NCBI GenBank assembly: GCA_902766695.1
Contig: CACXEY010000161.1
Span: forward strand, 1-35,548
Reading direction: 5' to 3'
DNA: 35,548 nt
DNA from: an uncultured bacterium
GTDB taxonomy: Bacteria > Verrucomicrobiota > Kiritimatiellia > CAIQIC01 > Lenti-01
Part shown: positions 3,813-35,386 of the stretch, piece by piece
Position numbering within the stretch: the stretch's first letter is position 1
Layout of the letters: each line of letters starts with the position of its first letter
The notes under the pieces: model-generated
The model's database searches: none
What the model was told of the DNA's origin: nothing
Seen by the model: the letters and a program-made list of their open reading frames with translations, nothing else
Made by a program: the position numbers and the translations under genes

Positions 3813-6134
3813 TCAGGATTTGCAGAGGTCTTCGAGGTAGGCTTCGACTTCGGAGATGCGGGTGAAGGTGAGCATTTCGCGGGCCTGCCATTCGGCTTCG
3901 TCGATGTTGATCTTGCCGATGGCTTCCTGGACGGCCGGGATGCTCGCGGAGTCGATGCTGATGGTCCGCAGGCCGATGCCCAGCAGGAAGGGGAGCATCT
4001 GGACGTCGCTGCCCAGGTTACCGCAGAGGGAGAGGGCCTTGCCGGTGGGTTTGACGGCTTCGGCGATGCGCGCCAGGGTGCGCAGGACGGCCGGATGGTG
4101 CGGGGAGAAGAAGCTCGAGACGGCGCTGTTGGTGCGGTCCACCGCCAGCAGGTACTGGATGAGGTCGTTGGTGCCGATGCTCAGGAAGTCGGCCGCTTTC
4201 GCGAAGTCGGCCGCGAGCATGGCGGTCGCGGGGATCTCGATCATGACGCCGATCTCGGGCAGGCGGCAGGGGATGCCTTCGGCCCGCAAATCGCGGTAGC
4301 AGGCGAGGGTGATTTCCTTGGCGGTCCAGTATTCGTCGAGGGAGGCGACCAGCGGGAACATGATCTTGGCCCGCTCGGACACGTGCGCGGCCCGCAGGAG
4401 GGCCCGCAGCTGCTGCTTGAAGATTTCGGGGTTGCGCAGGGAGAAGCGCAGGGCGCGGAGGCCCAGGAAGGGGTTGGATTCGTGCGGCGTGGGGAAGTAG
4501 GAGAGGGCCTTGTCGCCGCCGATGTCGAGGGTGCGGAAGACGACGGGCTTGCCGGCCATGCGCTCGAGGACGCTCTTGTAGCCGACGTACTGTTCTTCCT
4601 CGGTCGGGAAGGCGTTGCGGATGATGAAGGGGAATTCGGTGCGGTAGAGTCCGATGCCTTCGACCTTGGCGCTCATCGCGAGGTCGAGTTCGCTGACGAG
4701 GTTGAGGTTGGCCATGAGGGTGACGCGCGTGCCGTCGAGGGTGCGGGTCTCGGGCTTGCTGCGGCGGGCGAGCTGCTCGGTGGTGGCGAGGTTGCGCAGC
4801 AGTTCGCGCATGGTCTGGATGGCTTCCTCGCCGGGACGGATGACGATCTGCCCGCCCTTGGCGTCGAGGAGCACGGGGGTCTTTTCGGGGACGGCGAGGA
4901 GGCGCCGGTCGCCGCAGACGACGAGGGGCAGGTCGAGGGCCTTGGCGAGGATGGCGACGTGGGAGTGCTGTCCGGTGCCGAGCAGGATGAGCCCGGCGGC
5001 GCCCTCGGCGGAGAGTTTCAAAATGTCGGACGGCAGGAGGCTTTCGGCGATGACGATCTGCCCGGTGTAGTCGGGCATGTCGGCCTCGGCGGCGGCGGGA
5101 TTGAGGTTGTGCAACAGGCGGTGGCCGAGGTCCTCGACGTCGAGGACCTTTTCGCGCATGAGCGAGTTGGGGCTGTGCTCGAAGAGGTCGGCGTAGTGGC
5201 GGATTTCCTCCATGACCGCGTCCCACGGGTTCTTGCCCGCGCGGATCTTGAGGCGGATTTCGCCGGCGAACGCGTCGTCCTTGAGCATCAGCACGTGCGC
5301 GCCGAAGATCATCGACGCAGCGTCCTGTATCTTGTCCTGGAGCCGTCGCTGCAGCTCCAGCAGCTGGCGTTCGGTGAGGGCGGCCGCGCGGTCGAAGTCG
5401 GCCTCCGTGAGCCCTTCCGGCGCGGGGTCGTTGAGGGCGGTGCGCTCCAGGTAGTGGCCGATGCGGGTGGACAGGCCCATCGCCATCCCGCCCGCGGCCC
5501 AGATGCCCGGTATGCAGTGCGTGCCGGTGGCGAGCAGCAGCGCCTCGGGACCGTCGGTTTCGAGCTTGCCGCCGGGGCCGTCGGCGGAAGTGGAGACGGC
5601 GTCCTGGTTCTTGCGGAGGGCGAGGAGCAGGTGGGCGTTCTCGACGACGCCAGCGAGCTGCGAGGCGATGACGCGCAACGCCTGGATGTCGTTCGCCGTG
5701 AAGTAGTTGTACTGCGGGTCCTGCACGACGATGACGCCCACGGGGTTCATCTTGCGCGTGATGGGGACCGCGAGGTAGGAGACGAACGCCTCCTCGCCGC
5801 TGTCGGGCACGAACTTGTAATTCGGGTTGTCGCGCCCGTTCGCCTCGCAGATGGGCTTCAACGTCTTGAGGCTGGTCCCGACGAGCCCCTCGCCGAGCGC
5901 GAAGCGGAGCCGCCCGACGAGCGCCGGATTGAGCCCCTGGTTGGCGCGGAGCACGAGGTCCTGGGTTTTCGCCTCGTAGAGGTAGATCGAGCACACGGCG
6001 GCGCGCATGTGCCAGGCGACCATCGACACCGCGCGCTTCAGGAACGAGTCCAGCCCGCTCTCGAAATCGAACAACCCGACCAACTCCCCGATGTCGCACA
6101 TCAGCGCGACCGGATCTTTCTGGAAATCGCTCAT
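3813..6134 (-). CDS. ptsP: Phosphoenolpyruvate-protein phosphotransferase with GAF domain (enzyme I Ntr)
   Basis: 773 aa. Residues about 20-165 form a GAF sensor domain, followed by the EI N-terminal HPr-binding region (about 195-345), the swivelling phosphohistidine domain with HSHVAI in place of the usual TSHxAI (the phosphorylated His), and the C-terminal TIM barrel with LGLRALRFSL, MIEIPATAM, FLSIGTNDLIQY and the active-site Cys in LCGN. It transfers phosphate from PEP to NPr in the nitrogen-related PTS, a regulatory rather than sugar-uptake chain. No NPr, EIIA or sugar permease gene is in the window, so partners must lie elsewhere. Length is that of PtsP, not of PtsI. Start: AAGG five nt upstream of the ATG at 6134. 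Confidence 0.95.
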   Translation of the reverse strand: MSDFQKDPVALMCDIGELVGLFDFESGLDSFLKRAVSMVAWHMRAAVCSIYLYEAKTQDLVLRANQGLNPALVGRLRFALGEGLVGTSLKTLKPICEANGRDNPNYKFVPDSGEEAFVSYLAVPITRKMNPVGVIVVQDPQYNYFTANDIQALRVIASQLAGVVENAHLLLALRKNQDAVSTSADGPGGKLETDGPEALLLATGTHCIPGIWAAGGMAMGLSTRIGHYLERTALNDPAPEGLTEADFDRAAALTERQLLELQRRLQDKIQDAASMIFGAHVLMLKDDAFAGEIRLKIRAGKNPWDAVMEEIRHYADLFEHSPNSLMREKVLDVEDLGHRLLHNLNPAAAEADMPDYTGQIVIAESLLPSDILKLSAEGAAGLILLGTGQHSHVAILAKALDLPLVVCGDRRLLAVPEKTPVLLDAKGGQIVIRPGEEAIQTMRELLRNLATTEQLARRSKPETRTLDGTRVTLMANLNLVSELDLAMSAKVEGIGLYRTEFPFIIRNAFPTEEEQYVGYKSVLERMAGKPVVFRTLDIGGDKALSYFPTPHESNPFLGLRALRFSLRNPEIFKQQLRALLRAAHVSERAKIMFPLVASLDEYWTAKEITLACYRDLRAEGIPCRLPEIGVMIEIPATAMLAADFAKAADFLSIGTNDLIQYLLAVDRTNSAVSSFFSPHHPAVLRTLARIAEAVKPTGKALSLCGNLGSDVQMLPFLLGIGLRTISIDSASIPAVQEAIGKINIDEAEWQAREMLTFTRISEVEAYLEDLCKS

Positions 6135-6263: not shown

Positions 6264-6337
6264 TGCCCGATGGTGTAACGGTAGCACAGCAGACTCTGGA
6301 TCTGTTTGTTCAGGTTCAAATCCTGATCGGGCAACCA
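6264..6337 (+). tRNA. tRNA-Gln (anticodon CUG)
   Basis: A 74-nt cloverleaf with encoded CCA. The acceptor arm TGCCCGA pairs with TCGGGCA. The anticodon stem GCAGA/TCTGT encloses the loop CTCTGGA, giving anticodon CTG (codon CAG). The T arm contains GGTTCAAATCC. It is flanked by its own promoter and an intrinsic terminator, so it is a single-gene transcription unit. Confidence 0.97.
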
Positions 6338-6343
6338 CCCTTC

Positions 6344-6368
6344 GGCCGGACCGCGCGTCCGGCCTTTT
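6344..6368 (+). terminator. Intrinsic terminator of tRNA-Gln
   Basis: Stem GGCCGGAC / GTCCGGCC (8 bp, perfect) with loop CGCGC, followed by TTTT. It starts 7 nt after the tRNA. Confidence 0.8.
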
Positions 6369-6396: not shown

Positions 6397-6541
6397 TTTT
6401 CCAACGATTGGAAACTTTTTTTCCAATGATTGGAAACTTTTTTTCCAATGGTTGGAAAACCGGGCGGAATTTTCCAATGATTGGAAAAAATTTTCCCGGT
6501 TTTTCCAATGATTGGAAAAAAGTTTTCCAATGGTTGGAAAA
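6397..6541. repeat. Array of six 19-bp palindromes, TTTTCCAATGATTGGAAAA type
   Basis: Six copies begin at 6397, 6419, 6441, 6470, 6501 and 6523. Arms TTTTCCAA/TTGGAAAA are almost invariant and the centre is TGA, CGA or TGG. Centre-to-centre distances are 22, 22, 29, 31 and 22 bp, close to two or three turns of B-DNA. A second four-copy array is at 31644-31744. It lies between tRNA-Gln and the cobalamin operon promoter. Multi-site operator, nucleoid-protein site or repeat family are the options. The spacers are not uniform and the units are palindromic, so it is not a CRISPR array. Confidence 0.85.
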
Positions 6542-6825: not shown

Positions 6826-7000
6826 AGGTTCCGCCCCGGGGCAAACGGAATCCCGTGCGAATCGGGAGCTGTTGCGCAACTGTGAGCTTCCGCATGTCCC
6901 GGCCACTGCGCCACCCTGCGGCGGGGTCGTTCCGGCTTCCACGCGGCGGGGGAAGGCCCGGCCGGGTCCTACAGGAGGTCAGCCAGAAGACGTGTCCCGG
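6826..7000 (+). promoter_or_regulatory. Cobalamin (adenosylcobalamin-type) riboswitch
   Basis: The aptamer core is clear: GTGCGAATCGGGAGCTG, GCGCAACTGTGAG, then GCCACTGCGCC, GGGGGAAGGCC, and the 3' B12 box AGCCAGAAGACGTGTCC (6981-6997). The outer helix can form between TTCCGCCCCGGG and TCCCGGGGAA. A small GCGAC/GTCGC hairpin (about 7041-7053) lies just before the AAAGGA ribosome site of the next gene, consistent with translational control. By family knowledge, cobalamin binding represses the downstream uptake genes. Exact ends are estimated. Confidence 0.93.
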
Positions 7001-8189: not shown

Positions 8190-8940
8190 GGAACGCCCCC
8201 CCTTGAACCGCCGCGCTTTCACCCTCGTCGAGCTCCTCGCCGTCATCGTCCTCGTGGGCGTGCTGGCGGCGCTGCTCGTGCCGACGCTGGAACAGGGCCG
8301 CGAGGCGGCGCGGGCCGCCGCGTGCGCCACGAACCTGCGGCAGCTCGCCGCCGCCGCGCTCTCCTACGCGGCCGACCACGGCGGCGAGTTCCCGTGGGGG
8401 ATGCGCATCGAAGGCGGCGAAACGGCGTGCTGGGACTTCACCACCGGCGCCGGCGGCAAGGTGCGGCCGGGCGTGATCTGGGAGCGCATCCCCGAGTGCG
8501 CGAACGGGCGCGTCCTGCAGTGCCCGTCCTACGTCGGCGGCAGCGCGAACTGGCGCGGCGACCCCTACACCGGCTACAACTACAACTGCAGCTACGTCGG
8601 CAAGGTCGAGGGCGACACCGTCGTCCGCGACCGCCCCGCCCTCCCGTCGCCAATCGAGGTCCCAGCGCGCACGGCGCTCTTCGGCGACGGCCAGTACGCG
8701 CGCGGGGCGAACAAATTCATGCGCGCGCCCGACCCCGACCGCGCCCACGACGGCTCCGGCAGCGGCATCCGTTCCGCCGGCACCCAGGGCTTCCGCCACC
8801 GCGGGCGCACCAACGTCGCGTTCGCCGACGGCCACGTCGAGTCGCTCTCCACCCCTTACCGCCGCGGCTCGGAAGGTTTCGTCTCCGACGGCTGCGGCTT
8901 CCTCTCCCCCGACAACTCCCTCTACTCCCTCGCCAAATGA
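8176..8940 (+). CDS. Prepilin-type protein with H-X9-DG C-terminal motif
   Basis: About 254 aa. A type IV prepilin leader and hydrophobic helix (RRAFTLVELLAVIVLVGVLA) are followed by a periplasmic domain ending with the motif HRGRTNVAFADGH, typical of the large prepilin-like family abundant in Planctomycetes and relatives. Such proteins are processed at the F of FTLVE and anchored through the helix. The ATG at 8176 overlaps the previous gene by 14 nt; a TTG at 8203 with GAGGAA about 10 nt upstream would give the usual short leader and is a serious alternative. It sits inside the cobalamin operon and its stop overlaps the next start (ATGA), so it is co-translated with the transporter. Its role there is unknown. 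Confidence 0.88.
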   Translation: MPANEERPPLNRRAFTLVELLAVIVLVGVLAALLVPTLEQGREAARAAACATNLRQLAAAALSYAADHGGEFPWGMRIEGGETACWDFTTGAGGKVRPGVIWERIPECANGRVLQCPSYVGGSANWRGDPYTGYNYNCSYVGKVEGDTVVRDRPALPSPIEVPARTALFGDGQYARGANKFMRAPDPDRAHDGSGSGIRSAGTQGFRHRGRTNVAFADGHVESLSTPYRRGSEGFVSDGCGFLSPDNSLYSLAK

Positions 8941-10622
8941 CCTCCCTCCTCCGCTGCGAAAACCTCACCGTCCGCCTCGGCCGCAAGACCGTGATCGACG
9001 GCTTCACCGCCGACTTCGCCGCGGGCACCCTCGCCGTCCTCTCCGGTCCCAACGGAGCCGGAAAGACAACCCTCCTCCGTACCCTCGCCCGCGCGCTGGC
9101 CCCCTCCGCCGGACGCGTGCTCCTCGACGGCCACCCCTCCGACGGAATTCCCCGCGCCGCCTGGGCGCGCCGCGTCGCCTACCTTCCCCAGTCGCCCGAC
9201 GCCCGTTCCCTCGCCGGCTTCCCCGTGCGCGCCGCCGTCGCCGCCGGACGCCTCCCCCACGCCGGATTCTTCGGCGCCCTCGCCCGCCGCGACGAAGACG
9301 CCATCGACCGCGCCCTCGCCGCCACCGGACTCACTCCCCTCGCCGCCGCGGACGCCGGCTCCCTCTCCGGCGGCGAAACCCGCAAGATGTTCCTCTCCGC
9401 CGCCCTCGCGCAGGAAGCCGAAACCCTCCTCCTCGACGAACCCTTCGAAGGCCTCGACGCCGCGGCCCGCGCCGCCCTCGCCGACACCCTCCGCGCGCAG
9501 CTCGCCGCCGGACGCGCCGTCGTCCTCGCCACCCACGACCTCGCTCCCCTCGCCGGCATCCCGCACCGCGTCATCGAGATACGGCCAATAAAAAACAACT
9601 CAAACAACTCAAAGACAAACGAAAACAAAATTGTTGTAGAAAGGGAAAATGTAAAGCGGGAGGGAAAGACCGGAGGGCCCAGTTGTTTGCCCTCCTTGTC
9701 CATTTTCAAAAGAGTTGTCCCGAGTTGTTTTACCCTTCTCCTCCCGCTCCTGCTCGCCGCCGCGCTTGCCGCGCTGGCGGTGCGCGGATGCCCGCCCGGC
9801 CTCCTCTGGAGCTACCGCGTGCCGCGGCTGCTCTGCGCCTTCTGCGTTGGCGGCATCCTCGCGGTGACGGGATGCATCTACCAGACCCTCTTCCGCAATC
9901 CGCTCGCCTCGCCCTACACCCTCGGCACCGCGTCCGGCGCGACCCTCGGCGCCTACCTCGCGACGGCGTTCGCGCCCGGACTCGTCTCCGTGGGCGGGGC
10001 CGCCTTCGCGGGCGCATTGCTGTCCCTGGCTCTCGTGCGAGCCTGCGGCGGATCGGGCGGACGCCCGGCACGGCTGCTGTTGGGCGGCATCGCCTGCGCC
10101 TACCTCTTCGGCGCGGGCACGATGCTCTGCCAGTTCGCGATGACGCCCTGGGAGAGCTTCTCCATGGCCCACTGGAGCCTCGGCGGCATCGTCGTCCCCG
10201 AAGGCCCGTGGCGCATCGCCCTCCCCGCCGCCTGGTGCGCGGCGCTTGCATCGACCCTCCTCTCCCGCCCCCTCGACGCCCTCCTCGCTGGCGACGACGC
10301 GGCCTTCTCGCACGGACTCGACCCCGGGCGGCTCCGCTTCGCCCTGCTCGCCGGCGCGGCGCTGCTCGTCGCGTGCGCCGTCGCCGTGTGCGGCCCGGTG
10401 GGGTTCGTCGGACTCCTGGTACCGCACCTCGCGCGGCTCGCCGGCGGCGCGGCGCACCGGCGCCTCCTCCCCGCCTGCGCCATCGGCGGCGGACTCTTCC
10501 TCGCCCTCTGCGACGCGGCCGCCCGAGCCCTCCCCTTCGCCGGAACGCCCCCCGTCGGCATCGTCACCGCCGTCCTCGGCGCCCCCGCACTCGCCCTCCT
10601 CCTCGCCCGGAGCAGCCGATGA
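8937..10622 (+). CDS. BtuD-BtuC-type fusion: ABC ATPase joined to transport permease
   Basis: 561 aa in one open frame. Residues 1 to about 220 are an ABC ATPase: Walker A GPNGAGKTT, Q-loop YLPQSP, signature LSGGE, Walker B LLLDEP, H-loop THD. Residues about 220-262 form a polar linker rich in N, K and E, coded by unusually AT-rich DNA. Residues about 265-561 are a FecCD/BtuC permease with many membrane helices and the coupling motif GFVGLLVPH. These two are normally separate subunits of type II importers. The cobalamin riboswitch and the following BtuF-like gene point to corrinoid import. An internal TTG at 9687, preceded by GGAGGG, could let the permease be made separately, so two products cannot be excluded. 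ATGA overlaps link it to both neighbours. Confidence 0.88.
   Translation: MTSLLRCENLTVRLGRKTVIDGFTADFAAGTLAVLSGPNGAGKTTLLRTLARALAPSAGRVLLDGHPSDGIPRAAWARRVAYLPQSPDARSLAGFPVRAAVAAGRLPHAGFFGALARRDEDAIDRALAATGLTPLAAADAGSLSGGETRKMFLSAALAQEAETLLLDEPFEGLDAAARAALADTLRAQLAAGRAVVLATHDLAPLAGIPHRVIEIRPIKNNSNNSKTNENKIVVERENVKREGKTGGPSCLPSLSIFKRVVPSCFTLLLPLLLAAALAALAVRGCPPGLLWSYRVPRLLCAFCVGGILAVTGCIYQTLFRNPLASPYTLGTASGATLGAYLATAFAPGLVSVGGAAFAGALLSLALVRACGGSGGRPARLLLGGIACAYLFGAGTMLCQFAMTPWESFSMAHWSLGGIVVPEGPWRIALPAAWCAALASTLLSRPLDALLAGDDAAFSHGLDPGRLRFALLAGAALLVACAVAVCGPVGFVGLLVPHLARLAGGAAHRRLLPACAIGGGLFLALCDAAARALPFAGTPPVGIVTAVLGAPALALLLARSSR
9594..9731. repeat. AT-rich linker with inverted 9-bp repeats inside the ABC fusion gene
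   Basis: Left end: AACAACTCA twice in tandem (9594-9611), then AAGACAAAC. Right end: GAGTTGTCCCGAGTTGTTTT (about 9711-9730), the inverted complement of the same units. The whole stretch is far more AT-rich than its surroundings. It codes the linker between the ATPase and permease halves without breaking the frame. It looks like an inserted or expanded repeat. Confidence 0.65.
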
Positions 10623-11464
10623 AAAAAATATGTGTTTTGCTGGTTCTCCTCTTTGCTGCGGGCTGCACTCCACGCGCCGACCGCGACGCTCCGAAAGCGG
10701 ACGCCGTGCGCATCGTCTCCTTCCTGCCGAGCGCGACGGAAACCCTCTACGCCCTCGGCCTCGGCCCCTGCGTCGTCGGGCGCTCCAGCTTCTGCGACTA
10801 CCCGCCCGAAGCCGCGGCCCTGCCCGTCGTGGGCGACCTCTTCAGTACCAACGAAGACGCCCTCGCGGCCTTGCGCCCGACCCACGCCGTGCTGGGCCGC
10901 GCCGATGCTCCGCAAGCACCCCTCCTTCGCGCGCTGGGATGCGAAATCATCGAAGGCGGCGCCGAAACCGCCGCGGACGTCCTCGCCTTCGCCGATGAGA
11001 TCGGCCGCCTTTTCCCCGACCGCACCAACGGACTCGCCTCCGCCGGATCTCCCTGGCGCACGGCCATGGAGGAACTGGCCCGAGCCGGAACCTCCGGAAC
11101 TTCCGGGATCTCCGGAACTCCCGAACGCGTCCTAATCGTCGTTTCCCATGCTCCGGGCCGCTACGGCTCGGCCTTCGCGGCCGGCGAAGGCACCTTCCAC
11201 GACGAACTCCTCCGCGCGGCGGGTTTTTCCAACGCCCTGGCCGGCGTCCGCGGCTATCCCTCGCTCGATCCCGACCGCATCGCCGCGCTCGCCCCCGACC
11301 TCCTGATCGACATCCACCCCGACGGCGATTCCCCGGACGAAGATGCCTGGACCTACCTTCCCCACACCCGCACCGAACTCCTCCCCGACACCGCCGCCCT
11401 CCGTCCCGGGCCCCGCCTCCCCGAGGTCCTCGCCCGCTTCCGCGCCATCGCCCGCCAGCCGTAG
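10619..11464 (+). CDS. BtuF-like cobalamin-binding lipoprotein of ABC importer
   Basis: 281 aa. Signal peptide with lipobox LFAAGC (Cys about residue 16). The fold is a periplasmic-binding-protein TroA/BtuF type: VRIVSFLPSATETLYALGLG at the start, VVGRSSFCDYP, and FHDELLRAAGFSNAL near residue 200. It should deliver the substrate to the fused BtuD-BtuC transporter, whose stop codon overlaps its ATG (ATGA). Specificity for corrinoids is inferred from the riboswitch; the fold alone could also serve heme or siderophores. Oddity: a 9-bp tandem repeat (11087-11122) adds a flexible GTSGTSGISGTP segment between two domains. Confidence 0.88.
   Translation: MKKICVLLVLLFAAGCTPRADRDAPKADAVRIVSFLPSATETLYALGLGPCVVGRSSFCDYPPEAAALPVVGDLFSTNEDALAALRPTHAVLGRADAPQAPLLRALGCEIIEGGAETAADVLAFADEIGRLFPDRTNGLASAGSPWRTAMEELARAGTSGTSGISGTPERVLIVVSHAPGRYGSAFAAGEGTFHDELLRAAGFSNALAGVRGYPSLDPDRIAALAPDLLIDIHPDGDSPDEDAWTYLPHTRTELLPDTAALRPGPRLPEVLARFRAIARQP
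11087..11122. repeat. In-frame 9-bp tandem repeat in the btuF-like gene, 4 units
   Basis: GGAACCTCC, GGAACTTCC, GGGATCTCC, GGAACTCCC. It codes a Gly/Ser/Thr-rich loop. The same unit family occurs in the gspJ gene at 23275-23319. Confidence 0.7.
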
Positions 11465-20883: not shown

Positions 20884-21287
20884 GACAGCCGGGACTCCGT
20901 GCGAATAAGCCGGATTCTGTCGCCGCGCCTCGCGGCGCGGCCCGGTCATTTGTCTGAGCGGCCAACCCGGACCCGCCCCGCCTTGCGGCGGACGGAACGG
21001 GCCGCTCCGTTTCGGGTCCCTATTTGGCCTTGCTCCGGGCGGGGTTTGCCTTGCGCGGGACCTTCCGGCCGCCGCACGGTGGTCTCTTGCACCGCCGTTT
21101 CACCCTTGCTCCGGCGCCTTGCGGCACCGGGGCGGTATCGTTTCTGTGGCACTTTCCTTTCCCGGCGTTTGCCACCGGGATCCCGCACCTCCCGGCGCGG
21201 GCGCCCTGCCCTGCGGAGTCCGGACTTTCCTCCGGCGGCGGCACTTGCGCGTCCCGCCGGCGACCGGCGCCCGGAGCCCCGGCTGTC
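20884..21287 (-). ncRNA. rnpB: RNase P RNA (bacterial type A)
   Basis: Catalytic RNA that matures tRNA 5' ends. About 404 nt. Helix P1 closes with GACAGCCGGGGCTCCG at the 5' end (from 21287) against CGGAGTCCCGGCTGTC at the 3' end. Core motifs in order are GGAGGAAAGTCCGGAC, a P8-P10 region with CACAGAAACGATACCGCC, CAAGGGTGAAACGGCGG, then AAATAGGGACCCG, GGTCCGGGTTGGCC, GACAAATGACC and CAGAATCCGGCTTATTCGC. A promoter at 21301-21329 fits the 5' end. Confidence 0.97.
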
Positions 21288-28023: not shown

Positions 28024-28041
28024 ACCGCCGCGCTAGGCGGT
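28024..28041 (-). terminator. Small hairpin around the stop of the first kinase
   Basis: Minus strand: ACCGCC / GGCGGT with the TAG stop in the 6-nt loop, then TTTC. Weak candidate. Confidence 0.3.
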
Positions 28042-31000
28042 GAAGTGCTGGAGGGCTTGGAGGAGTTCTTTGATTTTCAGGGGTTTGGTGATGTGGCCGT
28101 CCATGCCGGCGCGGAGGGATTTTTCTTTGTCTTCTTCGAAGGCGTTGGCGGAGAAGGCGATGATCTTGAGTTTGTCGCCGCCGGGAAGGGCGCGGATGGC
28201 CGCGGTGGCCTGGTAGCCGTCCATCACCGGCATCTGGACGTCCATGACGACGATGTCGTAGTAGGAGGGGCCTTTTTCGCGGATGGCGTCGAGGGCGAGT
28301 TGGCCGTTGGAGGCGGTGTCGACGGTCATGCCTTGTTCGCCAAGGAGGAGCATGCCGACTTTGAGGTTGAGGCGGCTGTCGTCGACGAGGAGGACTTTTT
28401 TGCCCTTGAGGGTCGTGAGGGGCGCGGCGGCGTCTTCGCCCGGGGCCGCGGGCTTTCCGCAGGCGCGCAGGAGGACGCGGCGGAGGTCGGAGGGGAAGAG
28501 GGGCTTGGAGATGAAGTCGGTGACGCCGGCTTCGCGGGCCTCGTTCTCGATGTCCACCCAGTCGTAGGCGGTGAGGAGGAGGTAGGTGGCGCCGGGGGGG
28601 GCGATCTTGCGCAGGTGCCGGACGGTCTCGATGCCGTTGATGTCGGGCATGACCCAGTCGACGATGTAGACGCGGAAGGGTTCGCCGATGCGGAGGGCTT
28701 CTTCGGCGCGGATGGCGGCTTCGCGCCCGGTGACGCACCATTCGCTCTGGAGGCCGGCGGCGCGGAGCATGTCGGAGATGCTCTGGCAGGAGTTGACGTC
28801 GTCGTCGACGACGAGGGCGCGCAGGCCGTGGAGTTCGGGGATGGCGGGAAGGGCGGTCTTGGCGTCGGCGACTTTGAAGGGGAGGGTGACGGTGAATTCG
28901 GTGCCTTCGCCCTTCTTGGTCTGGAGGGTGATGGTGCCGCCCATCATTTGGACGATGTTCTTGGCGATGGCCATGCCGAGGCCGGTGCCCTGGATGCCGG
29001 AGACGGTGGTGTTTTCTTCGCGGGTGAAGGGGTCGAAGATGATCTTGGCGAATTCGGGGGTCATGCCGATGCCGTTGTCCTTGCAACGGAATTCGTAGGT
29101 GGCGCGGCCGTTCTCGGCGGGGGTGGTCTGGGCGACGCGCAGGGAGATGGTGCCGCCGGGGGGGGTGTATTTGATGGAGTTGGAGAGGAGGTTGAAGAGG
29201 ACCTGGTTGAGGTGCATCTTGTCGCAGTGGACGAGTTCGTTGCGGACGCCGATGGTGTCGATGTGGAAGTTGTGCTGGCGGGACTGGATGTCGGCCTGGA
29301 CGATGTCGTGGAGGGAGTGGAGGATTTCGGCGAGGGATTCGACGTGTTCGTGGAGGGTCATCTTGCCGGACTCGATGCGGCTCATGTCGAGGACGTCGTT
29401 GATGAGGGCGAGGAGGTGTTCGGAGGATTGGGCGATGGTCTTGAGGTATTCCTTGACGTGCTCGGGTTCGGCGAGGTGGGTGGCGGCGAGGCCGGTGAAA
29501 CCGATGATGGCGTTCATGGGGGTGCGGATGTCGTGGGACATGTTGCTGAGGAAGGTGGTCTTGGCGCGGTTGGCGGACTGGGCCATGCGGAGGGCTTCTT
29601 CGAGGTCGACCTGCTTGCGTTCGAGTTGCTTGCGGAGTTCGGATTCCTGGATGCCCTGCTGTTCGATGGTTTCGGAGTATTCGGTGAGGGCCTGGTTGAT
29701 TTCTTCGAGCCGGCGGTTGCTGAGGCGGGAGCCGACGAGGGCCATGAGGAGGGCGGCGAGGATGGCGCCGGCGAGGATGGCGGCGAGGATGTGTTTGCGC
29801 AGGAGGTCGAGGAGGGAGGGGGTGTAGATGCGCCCGGCGTAGGTGTAGGCGGCTTTGTTGATGAAGTCGGGCTCGAGCATGGTCAGACCGCGGTTCATGA
29901 GCAGGAGCAGGCCGAGGTTGTCCTGGGCGAAGGCCATGTGGAATTCGAACCCCTGGCGGCCGCGCATGGAGCCGAGGAGCTGGTATTTTTCGGCCTTGAG
30001 GAGGCCGGCGGTGCGCAGGCCGTTGAGGAAGGTGCCGTCGGAGGTGCCGCCGAGGATGCCGTCGAGGCAGGCGTGGATGTCGTCGTAGTAGACGATCTGG
30101 GCGAGGGGGTGGGCGTCGCGGGTGTAGTAGTCCTGCATGAGGTTGTGGCGGTTGACGCCGATGCGCACTTCGTTGCCCTGGCCGATTTCGCGGCCGTCGA
30201 GGAAGGCGAAGTCGCAGGCGAGGGTGAGCAGGACGCGGCCGCCGACGATGCGGAAGTCGCGCCGGACGGAGCTGCTGAGGTAGGCGGGGACCATGATGTC
30301 GATTTCGCCGGATTCGACGGCCTTGTAGCCCTTGAGCTGGTCGTCGTAGCAGATGAATTCGAGCTCGACGCGGTCGTCGAGCTTGAGGCGGCGGACGATT
30401 TCGCGGATGGCGTCGATGACGGCGCCGGTGGGGCGGCCGAGGTTGTCGCGTTCGCAGAAGGGGAGGTAGTCGTCGAAGTAGCCGACGCGGAGGCGGGTGT
30501 GGGTGTCGATCCAGTCTTTTTCGTCGCGGGTGAGGTTGCGGCTGAGGACGGTGTTGGAGAAATACCGTTCCTGGAGGCGGGTGAAGTAGTAGAGGTCGTT
30601 GTTGATGACCTTTTCCATGGCGAGGTTGATGTCGTCGACGAGGTCGGGCCGGAGCTTGCTGGCGACGAGGAAGTAGGAGGAGGAGCCGATCTTGGCGACG
30701 GCGGCGAGGTCGCTCTTGGCGAGCATGCTGACTTCGAGGTCGAGGTCGATTTCGCCGGCGCGGAGGGCGTCCTCCTTTTCGGGGATGCCGTCGTATTCGA
30801 CGATGCGCAGGCGGATGTTCTTGCGCCAGGCCCACTGTTCGAGCAGGCCGATCTGGATGGTGCCGGTGGTGACGCCGACGGACTTGCCGTCGAGGGTGGC
30901 GTAGTCGTCGGGGACGATGGAGGTGTTGTCCTGGGAGGCGTAGAGGTAGTAGTACTCGAAGCCCATGGGCTCGTCGGGGAAGAGGAGGGACTTGGCGCGC

Positions 31001-31335
31001 TCCTCGGTGTAGCTGACTTCGTAGTAGACGTCGGCGTCGCCGTCCTGGAGCTGGCGGATGCCGTCGAAGAAGTTGTCGCAGGGGACGAATTCGACGTCCC
31101 ATCCGGCGTAGGTGGCGATGGTCTGGATGAAGTCGTAGGCGTAGCCGGAGACGGGCTGGCCGTTTTCGTCGACGATCATCTGGCGGTTGAATTCCTGGCA
31201 GGGGACGCGCACGGCCTTGCGGGCCTCCTTCTCGGCGGCGCGGAGGGCCCCGGGGAACAGCAGGAGCGCCGCGAGGGCGAGGAGCCCGGCGGCCCGGCGG
31301 AACGCGGACGGGGCGATGCGCGGCTTGTCGCTCAT
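28033..31335 (-). CDS. Hybrid histidine kinase with two periplasmic solute-binding domains and two receivers (kinase 1)
   Basis: 1100 aa. Signal peptide 1-33; two tandem family-3 solute-binding domains (about 42-265 and 280-510); membrane helix about 514-534; coiled coil about 540-595; HisKA with phospho-His H601 in SNMSHDIRTPMN; HATPase with N box LSNSIKY, DNGIGM (753) and GTGLGMAIAK. Receiver 1: D844/D845, acceptor D893 in VDWVMPD, K944. Receiver 2: D985/D986, acceptor D1032 in MDVQMPVMDG, K1084. All phosphorelay residues are present. It should sense a small periplasmic ligand. No HPt, DNA-binding or effector domain is in the protein or next to it, so the output is unknown. The start overlaps the stop of a 13-codon leader frame (ATGA) and has no Shine-Dalgarno. 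Confidence 0.93.
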   Translation of the reverse strand: MSDKPRIAPSAFRRAAGLLALAALLLFPGALRAAEKEARKAVRVPCQEFNRQMIVDENGQPVSGYAYDFIQTIATYAGWDVEFVPCDNFFDGIRQLQDGDADVYYEVSYTEERAKSLLFPDEPMGFEYYYLYASQDNTSIVPDDYATLDGKSVGVTTGTIQIGLLEQWAWRKNIRLRIVEYDGIPEKEDALRAGEIDLDLEVSMLAKSDLAAVAKIGSSSYFLVASKLRPDLVDDINLAMEKVINNDLYYFTRLQERYFSNTVLSRNLTRDEKDWIDTHTRLRVGYFDDYLPFCERDNLGRPTGAVIDAIREIVRRLKLDDRVELEFICYDDQLKGYKAVESGEIDIMVPAYLSSSVRRDFRIVGGRVLLTLACDFAFLDGREIGQGNEVRIGVNRHNLMQDYYTRDAHPLAQIVYYDDIHACLDGILGGTSDGTFLNGLRTAGLLKAEKYQLLGSMRGRQGFEFHMAFAQDNLGLLLLMNRGLTMLEPDFINKAAYTYAGRIYTPSLLDLLRKHILAAILAGAILAALLMALVGSRLSNRRLEEINQALTEYSETIEQQGIQESELRKQLERKQVDLEEALRMAQSANRAKTTFLSNMSHDIRTPMNAIIGFTGLAATHLAEPEHVKEYLKTIAQSSEHLLALINDVLDMSRIESGKMTLHEHVESLAEILHSLHDIVQADIQSRQHNFHIDTIGVRNELVHCDKMHLNQVLFNLLSNSIKYTPPGGTISLRVAQTTPAENGRATYEFRCKDNGIGMTPEFAKIIFDPFTREENTTVSGIQGTGLGMAIAKNIVQMMGGTITLQTKKGEGTEFTVTLPFKVADAKTALPAIPELHGLRALVVDDDVNSCQSISDMLRAAGLQSEWCVTGREAAIRAEEALRIGEPFRVYIVDWVMPDINGIETVRHLRKIAPPGATYLLLTAYDWVDIENEAREAGVTDFISKPLFPSDLRRVLLRACGKPAAPGEDAAAPLTTLKGKKVLLVDDSRLNLKVGMLLLGEQGMTVDTASNGQLALDAIREKGPSYYDIVVMDVQMPVMDGYQATAAIRALPGGDKLKIIAFSANAFEEDKEKSLRAGMDGHITKPLKIKELLQALQHFTA

Positions 31336-31643: not shown

Positions 31644-31744
31644 TTTTCCAATGATTGGAAAATAGTTTCCAATGGTTGGAAAATTCCGGGCGGTTTTTCC
31701 AATGATTGGAAAAATTTTTCGGCGGTTTTCCAATGATTGGAAAA
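31644..31744. repeat. Second array of 19-bp palindromes, 4 units
   Basis: Copies begin at 31644, 31665, 31695 and 31726 (TTTTCCAATGATTGGAAAA type; the second starts GTTTCC and has centre TGG). Centre distances are 21, 30 and 31 bp. It lies 310-410 nt upstream of the kinase 1 start. Spacer CCGGGCGG is shared with the array at 6397-6541. Confidence 0.85.
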
Positions 31745-32051: not shown

Positions 32052-35000
32052 CTAGACGCCGAAGGTGCGGAGTTCGGTGAGGAATTCGGTGATTTTCAGG
32101 GGTTTGGTGATGTGGCCGTCCATGCCGGCGCGGAGGGATTTTTCGCGGTCTTCTTCGAAGGCGTTCGCGGAGAAGGCGATGATCTTCAGTTTGTCCCCGC
32201 CAGGAAGGGCCCGGATCGCCGCCGTGGCTTCGTAGCCGCCCATCACCGGCATCTGGACGTCCATGACGACGATGTCGTAGTAGGCGGTGCCTTTGGCGCG
32301 GATGGCGTCGAGGGCGAGCTTGCCGTTGGCGGCGGTGTCGACGGTGGCGCCTTTTTCGGTCAGCAGCAGGACGCCGATCTTGAGGTTGAGGTGGCTGTCG
32401 TCCACCATCAGGATTTTCTTGCCGGCGAGGGTGGTGTCGTCGGGGGCGGCTTTCTTCTTGGGCCGCACGGGGCAGGCGCGGCCGCAGGTCTGGAGGAGGA
32501 CTTTGTGCAGGTCGGTGGGGAATACGGGCTGGGACAGGAAGCCGGTGACGCCGGCGGAGCGCGCCTCGGCTTCGATGTCCAGCCAGTCGTCGGCGGTGAC
32601 GATGAGGATGTCGGCGCCGGGCGCGAGGTGGCCGCGGAGGCGGCGTACGGTTTCGCGGCCGTTGAGGCCGGGGGCGAGGCAGTCGACGAGGACCAGGCGG
32701 AAGGGGGCGCCGGCGCGCTGGGCGGCTTCGGCGCGCGCGGCGGCGTCTTCGGCGGTGGTGGAGGCGTCGCTCTGGAGGCCGGCGTCGCGGAGCATGCCGG
32801 CGAGGCTGCGGGCGGCGTCGGGGTCGCCGGAGACGGCGAGGGCGGGACGGCCGTGGAGTTCGGGGATGTCCGGGTCGGGGGTCTTGCGGGCGGCGAGGCG
32901 GAAGTCGAGGGTGGCGGTGAATTCGGTGCCTTCGCCTTTCTTGGAGGCGACGGTGATGGTGCCGCCCATCATCTCGACGATGTTCTTGGCGATGGCCATG
33001 CCGAGGCCCGTGCCCTGGATGCCGGAGACGGTGGAGTTGCGGGCGCGGACGAAGGGGTCGAAGACGGTCCTGAGGAATTCTTTGTCCATCCCGATGCCGT
33101 TGTCGCGGCAGCGGAATTCGTAGCGGGCGCGGCCTTCCTCCCCGGCGGGTTTCTGGGCGATGCGCAGGGTGATGGTGCCGCCGGGAGGGGTGTATTTGAT
33201 GGCGTTGGAGACGAGGTTGAAGAGGAGCTGGTTGAGGCGGAGTTTGTCGCAATGGACGAGTTCGTCGCGGACGCCGAGGGTCTGGATGGTGAAGCGGTGG
33301 TGGCGGGCGCGGACGTCGGCGCGGACGATGTCGCGGAGGGCGTGGAGGATGTCGGCGAGGGATTCGTCCTTTTCGTTGAGGGTCATCTTGCCGGATTCGA
33401 TGCGGCTCATGTCGAGGACGTCGTTGATCAGGGAGAGGAGGTGCTCGGAGGATTCGCCGATGGTCTTGAGGTATTCCTTGACGTGTTCCTTGTCGTCGAT
33501 GTGGTCGGCGGCGAGGCCGGTGAAGCCGATGATGGCGTTCATGGGCGTGCGGATGTCGTGGGACATGTTGCTGAGGAAGGCGGTCTTGGCGCGGTTGGCG
33601 GCCTGGGCCATCTGGAGGGCGTCTTCGAGCTGGGCCTTGTTCTTTTCGAGCTCGTGGCGCTGGCGCTCGATGGTGGCGTAGTTCTCCTCCAGGCGGCGGT
33701 TGACCCGCGCGAGGTCGCGGTTGTGGATGCGGCCGACGACCGCGAAGGCGAGCAGCGCCGTCAGGACGATCGCCACGAGGATGATCGCCAGGATGTGGTC
33801 CATCAGGAAGTCCATCCACGTGGGCTGGGTGATCTCCCCGGCGTAGGTGTACGAGGCCTTGCTGATGAAGTCCGGCTCGAGCATCGAGAGGCCGCGGTTC
33901 ATCAGCAGCATCAGGCCGACGTTGTCTTCGGCGTAGGCGAAGCAGAGCTGGAAGGAGTCCTTCGCCCGCACCGCCTGCAGGGAGTGGTACTGGCCCGGGC
34001 GCAGCAGGCCCGCCGTGCGCGCGCCGTTGACGAAGGTGGCGTCGGACGTCCCCTCCAGCAGGCCGTCGAGGCAGGCGCGGATGCCGTCGTAGAAGACGAT
34101 CTGCGACCCGGGGAAGGCGTCCTTGCTGTAGTAGTACTGCATGAGGTTGTTGCGGTTGACGCCGATGCGCGGGACCTGGCCCTCCTCCGGCTCCTCCACG
34201 AACGCCAGGTCGCTCGCGAGAGTCGCCACGCCCTTGCCGCCGATGAGGTGGTAGTCCCGGCGGACGGAGGCGCTGACGTAGGCGGGGAACATCAGGTCGA
34301 TCTTGCCGGATTCGAGCGCGCGGTAGGCCTCGTCCTGGTCGAGGAAGCAGACGAACTCCGTGCGCACGCGGTCGTCCAGTTCCAGGCGCTTGAGGATTTC
34401 CGGGATGGCGTCGACGAGGGAGCCGTAGGGGTCGCCGGACTCGGCCCTGGCGGAAAAGGGGAGGTAGTGGTCGAAATAGCCGATGCGGAGGGTGTCGTGC
34501 TCCCCGACCCAGCGGCGCTCGTCGGTGGTGAGGTTGCGGCTGCGGACGGCGTCGGAGAAGTAGTGCTCCTGGAGGCGGGTGAAGTGGTAGATGTCGTTGT
34601 AGAGGATCTTGTCCATCGCGGCGTCGATGTCCGCGAGCAGGTCGGGGCGGTCCTTGTTCACCGCCAGGTAGTAGGCCGAGGAACCGACCTTCTCCACCGC
34701 CGAGAAGCGCAGGGGGGCCATCATGCTCACCTCGTAGTCGAGGTCGATGCGGCCGGCGTCGAGGTCGGCCTCCTTGACGGGGAGGTCCGTGTATTCGACG
34801 AACTCGAGGCGGACGCCCTTCTTTTCGCACCACTGGCGGAGGAGGTCGATCTGCATGGTGCCGCGGGTGACGCCGACGCGCTTGCCCTCGAGGGAGGCGT
34901 AGTCGTCGGGGGCGATGTCGGTGTTCTCCTCGGAGACGTAGAGGTAGTAGTACTCGAGGCCCATGGGCTCGTCGGGGAAGAGCATCAGCTTCTCGCGCTC

Positions 35001-35381
35001 CTCGGTGTGGCTGAGCTCGTAGAAGAGGTCGGCGTCGCCGCGGACGAGCATGTCGATGCATTCGGCGAAGTTGGCGGCGGGGATGTATTCGACCTCCCAT
35101 CCGGCGTAGGTGGCGATGGTCTGGATGTAGTCGTAGGCGTAGCCGGAGACGGGCCGGCCGGCGGCATCCGCCACCATCACCCGGTTGAGCTCCACGAGCG
35201 GAATCCGCACCACCTTGCGCCCCGCCTTCCGCTTGGCCTTGGCGAAACCCGTCGAGGGCAAGAGCAGCAGCACCAGCACCGCCGCCAAACAGACCCGCAC
35301 GGCGGCCCGGAGGAACCCCCTTCCGGGGCTGGAAAGGCGGAATGATGCGGCGTCGGCTCGGAAAATGCGTTTCATCGTCAT
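32052..35381 (-). CDS. Hybrid histidine kinase with two periplasmic solute-binding domains; first receiver degenerate (kinase 2)
   Basis: 1109 aa, paralogue of kinase 1 over its full length. Signal segment about 22-48; two family-3 solute-binding domains (about 58-285 and 298-520); membrane helix about 529-549; HisKA H608 in SNMSHDIRTPMN; HATPase with VSNAIKY, DNGIGM, GTGLGMAIAK. Receiver 2 is complete (D994/D995, acceptor D1041, K1093). Receiver 1 is not: the acidic pair is Ser851/Gly852 (AVSGDPD) and the conserved Lys is Gln951 (LSQPVF), although D900 remains. It probably cannot be phosphorylated normally. Start: three ATGs lie close; the first (35384) is only 2 nt after the -10, so 35381 was used; 35375 (MKRIFR) is also possible. 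No output gene adjoins. Confidence 0.93.
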   Translation of the reverse strand: MTMKRIFRADAASFRLSSPGRGFLRAAVRVCLAAVLVLLLLPSTGFAKAKRKAGRKVVRIPLVELNRVMVADAAGRPVSGYAYDYIQTIATYAGWEVEYIPAANFAECIDMLVRGDADLFYELSHTEEREKLMLFPDEPMGLEYYYLYVSEENTDIAPDDYASLEGKRVGVTRGTMQIDLLRQWCEKKGVRLEFVEYTDLPVKEADLDAGRIDLDYEVSMMAPLRFSAVEKVGSSAYYLAVNKDRPDLLADIDAAMDKILYNDIYHFTRLQEHYFSDAVRSRNLTTDERRWVGEHDTLRIGYFDHYLPFSARAESGDPYGSLVDAIPEILKRLELDDRVRTEFVCFLDQDEAYRALESGKIDLMFPAYVSASVRRDYHLIGGKGVATLASDLAFVEEPEEGQVPRIGVNRNNLMQYYYSKDAFPGSQIVFYDGIRACLDGLLEGTSDATFVNGARTAGLLRPGQYHSLQAVRAKDSFQLCFAYAEDNVGLMLLMNRGLSMLEPDFISKASYTYAGEITQPTWMDFLMDHILAIILVAIVLTALLAFAVVGRIHNRDLARVNRRLEENYATIERQRHELEKNKAQLEDALQMAQAANRAKTAFLSNMSHDIRTPMNAIIGFTGLAADHIDDKEHVKEYLKTIGESSEHLLSLINDVLDMSRIESGKMTLNEKDESLADILHALRDIVRADVRARHHRFTIQTLGVRDELVHCDKLRLNQLLFNLVSNAIKYTPPGGTITLRIAQKPAGEEGRARYEFRCRDNGIGMDKEFLRTVFDPFVRARNSTVSGIQGTGLGMAIAKNIVEMMGGTITVASKKGEGTEFTATLDFRLAARKTPDPDIPELHGRPALAVSGDPDAARSLAGMLRDAGLQSDASTTAEDAAARAEAAQRAGAPFRLVLVDCLAPGLNGRETVRRLRGHLAPGADILIVTADDWLDIEAEARSAGVTGFLSQPVFPTDLHKVLLQTCGRACPVRPKKKAAPDDTTLAGKKILMVDDSHLNLKIGVLLLTEKGATVDTAANGKLALDAIRAKGTAYYDIVVMDVQMPVMGGYEATAAIRALPGGDKLKIIAFSANAFEEDREKSLRAGMDGHITKPLKITEFLTELRTFGV

Positions 35382-35386
35382 CATGG

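Follow-up and report, generated by a model that had tools for sequence, protein, structure and literature searches.

Helically phased palindrome arrays recur in intergenic gaps across Kiritimatiellia and are candidate sites for a cooperative DNA-binding protein

Short arrays of a palindrome, with centres set two or three helical turns apart, were found at hundreds of intergenic places in the genome of an uncultured member of the Kiritimatiellia and in many relatives across its class. The arms and the spacing of these arrays are under selection, and the arrays are indifferent to the direction of neighbouring genes. They are read here as sites for a sequence-specific, cooperatively binding protein that would organise the nucleoid or insulate transcription units from one another and would not control particular promoters, a reading to which we give about an even chance. 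No published description of the palindrome was found in a literature library searched by sequence and for Kiritimatiellae palindromes.

Arrays in the analysed window

The window (the whole stretch of 35,548 nucleotides that was analysed) contains two arrays of a 19-bp dyad (Table 1). The six and four copies first read from the letters, together with their centre spacings, were recovered exactly. Each array dyad carried 0–2 mismatches (better strand scored), and a scan of the window with ≤ 3 mismatches returned these ten dyads as its sole matches. No palindrome match was obtained in 100 dinucleotide-preserving shuffles of the window. The copies are non-identical, with a central triplet that varies among TGA, TGG and CGA. 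The GC content was 0.34 for array 1 and 0.36 for array 2, and 0.69 for the window as a whole.

Array 1 follows a tRNA gene with its likely terminator; beyond the array come the cobalamin riboswitch at the head of the following unit and then a BtuC/D-type transporter unit. The stem of this terminator has 8 pairs, of which 7 are GC (consensus scan), and the call is weak on the scan alone because two such stems were found against 1.7 expected. Array 2 is located inside a gap of ~700 bp, with two co-directional hybrid histidine kinases on its sides.

Table 1. Coordinates of the arrays and neighbouring features in the window
Feature	Coordinates	Strand	Description	Source
Array 1	6397..6541	.	six 19-bp dyads, starts 6397, 6419, 6441, 6470, 6501, 6523; centre triplets CGA, TGA, TGG, TGA, TGA, TGG; spacings 22, 22, 29, 31, 22	
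Array 2	31644..31744	.	four 19-bp dyads, starts 31644, 31665, 31695, 31726; centre triplets TGA, TGG, TGA, TGA; spacings 21, 30, 31	
GAF + PEP-utilising enzyme (PtsP/EI-type) gene	3813..6134	-	left of array 1, divergent	Pfam
tRNA-Gln(CTG) gene	6264..6337	+	shortly 5' of array 1	ARAGORN, Rfam
Likely intrinsic terminator of tRNA unit	6344..6364	+	GC-rich stem, then TTTT; ahead of array 1	
Cobalamin riboswitch	6845..6993	+	42 bits; ~300 bp past array 1, heads next + unit	Rfam RF00174
Fused ABC ATPase + FecCD/BtuC-type permease	8937..10622	+	cobalamin-type uptake unit	Pfam, NCBIfam
Peripla_BP_2 protein	10706-11464		cobalamin-type uptake unit	Pfam, NCBIfam
Hybrid histidine kinase 1	28033..31335	-	start ~310 bp from array 2	NCBIfam, gene call
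Hybrid histidine kinase 2	32052..35384	-	stop ~310 bp from array 2	

Genome-wide occurrence and helical phase

The genome of the window (3.04 Mb, 318 contigs) was searched for the palindrome at ≤ 2 mismatches, which returned about 440 sites, nearly all of them intergenic. The reversed-motif control, run genome-wide at the same threshold, returned zero sites. Within 774 kb sampled from this genome, 84 clusters were counted, mostly of 4–6 sites each, with centre spacings of 22 bp (n = 91), 30 bp (54), 31 bp (57), 21 and 29 bp (6 each) and a few further values. Runs reach up to 6–7 sites. The distribution of centre distances, whose genome-wide histogram the earlier note had proposed as a check, was non-flat in the sampled sequence, with modes at 22, 30 and 31 bp. 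Copy numbers are lower bounds because arrays break the assembly, with contig ends often ~90 bp from a site; in many draft contigs (L032, L055, L056, L064, L067, L077) an array site follows about 90 bp after the start.

Spacing was found to follow a grammar of centre triplets, with 22 bp from TGA to TGG (66 cases), 30 bp from TGG to TGA (38 cases) and 31 bp from TGA to TGA (40 cases). Given that 22 + 30 = 52 bp is close to five turns and 31 bp close to three, phase drift is minimal. When helical periods were scanned in the window's genome, within-array phase coherence was maximal at 10.4 bp (R = 0.92), compared with R = 0.64 at 10.0 and 0.31 at 11.0. This peak fits dyads on nearly the same side of the helix; the difference between copies in their centre triplet refines what was first read from the letters.

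Distribution among relatives

Many genomes of the window's order carry the palindrome in large numbers. A paired pattern with a spacing of 20–50 was present in 23 of 388 genomes of the phylum, every one of them in the window's class. Named matches were MAGs labelled Kiritimatiellae, Lentisphaerae, Verrucomicrobia and a few others, and the sheep and goat rumen Kiritimatiellae MAGs among them show the 22-bp mode. The core common to relatives in the class (Kiritimatiellae-type MAGs) is TTTCC-N7-GGAAA, and with this relaxed core pairs at 29–33 bp were found in 80 of 346 class genomes and in 26 of the 28 genomes of the window's order. Among the class genomes, the same core gave no arrays in genus g8, in families f8, f12 and f15 and in nearly all of family f13, nor did it in the sister genus to which G001 and G002 belong. 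Since arrays are missing from G001/G002 and from families f8, f12 and f15, the system is dispensable.

Lineages differ in the inner bases of the dyad, which switch from TTTCCAA-N3-TTGGAAA to TTTCCA-N5-TGGAAA (e.g., TTTCCATTGCGTGGAAA, in G013–G015 and other sister genera), with the arms and the 31-bp spacing unchanged. Genera that appeared empty by the exact motif hold dyads of the type TTTCCA-TTGCG-TGGAAA at the same spacing. Genus-level patchiness within the order was accordingly dropped, except for genus g8, because the exact TTTCCAA-N3-TTGGAAA search had missed the changed inner bases. The switch suggests a change in the specificity of the putative protein. A dyad pair at 31 bp was also seen in two viral-collection contigs (L210, 3459–3506; L211, 10588–10635), which may stem from the host genome or from phages that infect these bacteria.

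Whole-genome pair counts, which are free of the selection bias of the 20–50-bp pattern and cover 20–60 bp, were summed over 18 genomes outside the window's family, giving about 2,242 pairs at 29–33 bp, 20 at 20–28 bp and 57 at 34–60 bp; spacing in these genomes is almost only 31–32 bp. In sampled sequence, where some loci had been picked by the 20–50-bp pair pattern and spacing is thus partly pre-selected, 214 of the 233 neighbouring sites no more than 200 bp from each other were 31 or 32 bp apart. All eight tested genomes of f1, the family of the window, are rich in the two-turn mode (22 bp), which hardly occurs elsewhere.

Spacer identity was 0.345–0.379 in G003 and G004 (random, 0.343–0.359) and also near random in SCQF. 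It was somewhat above random in CAISWQ and CAIVKH (0.47 vs. 0.38 in the latter) and clearly above random only in the window's own genome, G000 (0.65 vs. 0.33). Spacing is thus fixed across families and spacer sequence mostly random, which supports a cooperative dimeric DNA-binding protein.

Divergence between congeners

Orthologous arrays of G000 and its congener G012 were aligned, a comparison of only a handful of arrays. Differences were counted at 5 of 427 arm positions (1.2%), 22 of 217 spacer positions (10.1%), 5 of 90 centre positions and 117 of 4400 flank positions. The arms diverged less than the spacers (p = 2.6e-7); arms and flanks, the latter largely coding, did not differ significantly (p = 0.07). 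No spacer indels were seen in the aligned arrays, and change between the congeners took the form of gain or loss of whole units (31 bp, 52 bp or larger). An array was retained in every orthologous gap compared and no empty orthologous site was seen; in the gap orthologous to array 1, G012 keeps two of the six dyads, 22 bp apart. In the more distant G003 and G004, three of the four pairs examined are found in the same gaps, where the copy number or position has changed or sites have degenerated; the fourth is missing.

Selection therefore acts on the arms and the spacing. Maintenance of both, while the spacers drift, again supports a cooperative dimeric DNA-binding protein. The earlier note had favoured such a protein over simple repeat growth, and fixed spacing, arm conservation and the 10.4-bp coherence all argue for it, whereas the gain and loss of 31-bp, 52-bp and larger units indicates that repeat growth does occur as well. 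Judged from the sequences compared, a cooperative dimer in place of simple repeat growth is a well supported candidate.

Gene context

Genes outside the window were called with a simple codon-usage caller trained on those window ORFs that have protein-family support, and distances to starts are rough there because of the simplicity of the caller. In the sampled genomes, 185 clusters were assigned to 121 tandem, 37 divergent and 27 convergent gaps. Background gaps ≥ 60 bp were 66% tandem, 19% divergent and 15% convergent, which is indistinguishable from the clusters (chi-square p = 0.96). Within tandem gaps, 73 of 121 arrays were closer to the upstream stop than to the next start (p = 0.03). 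The genes scanned beside arrays were ordinary housekeeping or signalling genes, and no neighbour gene family recurred in more than three of the sampled genomes. Array placement is unlike that of operators or terminators. The promoter or operon link that had been drawn from the position of both window arrays upstream of a transcription unit was consequently not upheld, given contexts equal to background and a slight lean to the upstream stop; nor do arrays lie mostly at convergent gene ends, the outcome named beforehand as telling against a phased binding array, yet enrichment upstream of genes is likewise lacking.

Proposed nucleoprotein model

Each 17–19-bp dyad is predicted to be the site of one homodimer of a putative DNA-binding protein. 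The core TTTCC-N7-GGAAA, in the window's genome TTTTCCAA-NNN-TTGGAAAA, would place the half-sites about one helical turn apart, and adjacent dimers would touch each other at three turns (30–32 bp) on the same helix face, with a two-turn contact (22 bp) also permitted in the window's family. Half-sites one turn apart at two or three turns, a spacer of free sequence and fixed length, and selected arms all point to dimers in contact on one face of the DNA. A run of 2–6 sites may then nucleate a cooperative nucleoprotein patch, and such patches would occupy intergenic gaps whatever the gene direction, often near an upstream stop codon. An architectural or insulating role is suggested because arrays are indifferent to gene direction, which amounts mainly to an absence of promoter bias.

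A bolder version, which we regard as tentative and somewhat less probable than not, would be a chromatin-like system in which a dedicated sequence-specific protein would polymerise along phased dyad arrays between transcription units, advancing strictly by two or three turns, so that the arrays would serve as genome-wide insulators, with inner recognition bases that change by lineage. Cooperative, helically phased dyad arrays at hundreds of intergenic places, with a geometry conserved across many families and a spacer sequence mostly not, would amount to a code for organising DNA on the scale of the genome, of a kind otherwise met mainly at single operators. A defined probe of 50–150 bp offers a concrete handle on the protein, and sister lineages with altered inner bases or without arrays provide natural comparisons in which protein and sites would change together.

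Alternative explanations

The dyads could instead be operators of a global transcription factor with a large regulon, which, like NrdR, would pair its dimers into a tetramer spanning two dyads at a distance of three turns. NrdR boxes are palindromes 15–16 bp apart, about three turns centre to centre with four tolerated, and binding of NrdR to a pair of boxes is best if their centres are whole turns apart (PMC12051234). In common with these boxes, the arrays have dimer-sized palindromes at a fixed spacing, the centres being separated by whole turns, most often three; this commonest geometry, dominant as 31/32 bp outside the window's family, is that of NrdR boxes (PMC12051234), and each window array also lies upstream of a gene. 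Unlike NrdR boxes, which are few per genome and sit at RNR promoters, the arrays comprise hundreds of sites of a different sequence, in all gap types and in runs of up to 6–7; they are not confined to RNR promoters or nrdR, and the core dyad was absent from eight nrdR loci. Copy number in the hundreds, gene contexts equal to background (convergent gaps included) and neighbour genes without wide recurrence further weigh against a regulon, and we consider this explanation unlikely. NrdR itself was rejected as the binder because its presence in 47 of 48 genomes, array-rich and array-free alike, fails to separate genomes with arrays from those without.

The dimers of Lrp/AsnC-type regulators come together as octamers, around which DNA is wrapped across several phased sites. 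The arrays resemble such targets in having several phased sites each and differ in that no sequence link was shown. The family was present in 28 of 28 genomes tested, two of them array-free, and its presence therefore does not separate array-bearing from array-free genomes. The sites of MatP (matS), Noc and SlmA are many palindromes bound by one dimeric protein without promoter preference, mostly single, in tens per genome and in one chromosome region. The arrays are likewise many palindromes without promoter preference; unlike those single sites they form helically phased runs, as read from draft contigs.

Spread of the palindromes as DNA elements, in the way of REP/BIME/REPIN dispersed repeats and with a spacing inherited from an ancestral unit, would account for hundreds of short intergenic palindromes that are often regularly clustered, for the whole units gained or lost between congeners, for the likeness of spacers within the window's own genome and for the slight lean to gene 3' ends and their stop codons; many E. 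coli REPs are also placed nearer stop codons (PMC12306157). It accounts less well for a spacing that stays at 31–32 in most other genomes despite near-random spacers, for arms that evolve far more slowly than spacers and for the lack of any empty orthologous site among the congener gaps compared. Copies dispersed as units together with their spacer were not seen in G003 and G004, and only partly in CAIVKH and G000. Unlike REP/BIME/REPIN elements, the arrays repeat one core at least twice at a constant distance with spacers that are mostly unrelated, extend class-wide across families, change their inner dyad bases by lineage and have no link to Y1 (RAYT-type) transposases. In a domain-level search, PF01797 (Y1_Tnp) gave two weak partial matches in G000 and none in the array-bearing G018 and G168, and several Y1 transposases were present in the array-free G001 and G002; a Y1 transposase was rejected as the driver because its presence does not separate the two kinds of genome. 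RAYT-driven spread thus fits poorly, the arrays may have arisen as REP-like elements and been recruited later, and dispersal of this kind as the explanation is regarded as quite improbable. These phyla go unmentioned in the main text of a REP survey from 2025 (PMC12306157).

Elements acting in RNA, as transcript hairpins formed by single palindromes or between them and serving as terminators or as processing or stability elements, were judged very improbable. Long stems (about −20 to −30 kcal/mol) can form between adjacent palindromes, some arrays are placed near stop codons, and 7 of 46 double mismatches were compensatory pairs, a weak signal in a small test. Single hairpins, however, are weak (−5.1 kcal/mol), and the arms are invariant in sequence and do not covary. 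Divergent gaps hold as many arrays as background (37 of 185 vs. 19%) and do not show the depletion expected of intrinsic terminators. Helical phasing has no meaning in RNA, the orientation of the centres is mixed in several genomes, and the tRNA unit beside array 1 appears to own a terminator.

Other features of the window

A second palindromic word, CTAGRTATCTAG, was observed at positions 84 and 6177 of the window and at 1467–1483 and 1855–1871 of L257. It forms short tandem runs of about 8 bp adjoining genes, and in the congener G012 it borders the same ptsP-like region. ARAGORN called a tRNA-Lys at 32904–32979 (+), which lies within, and antisense to, the hybrid kinase 2 gene and is probably spurious because it is absent from the Rfam matches. 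The window also contains a bacterial RNase P RNA of class A at 20890–21277 (−; Rfam RF00010).
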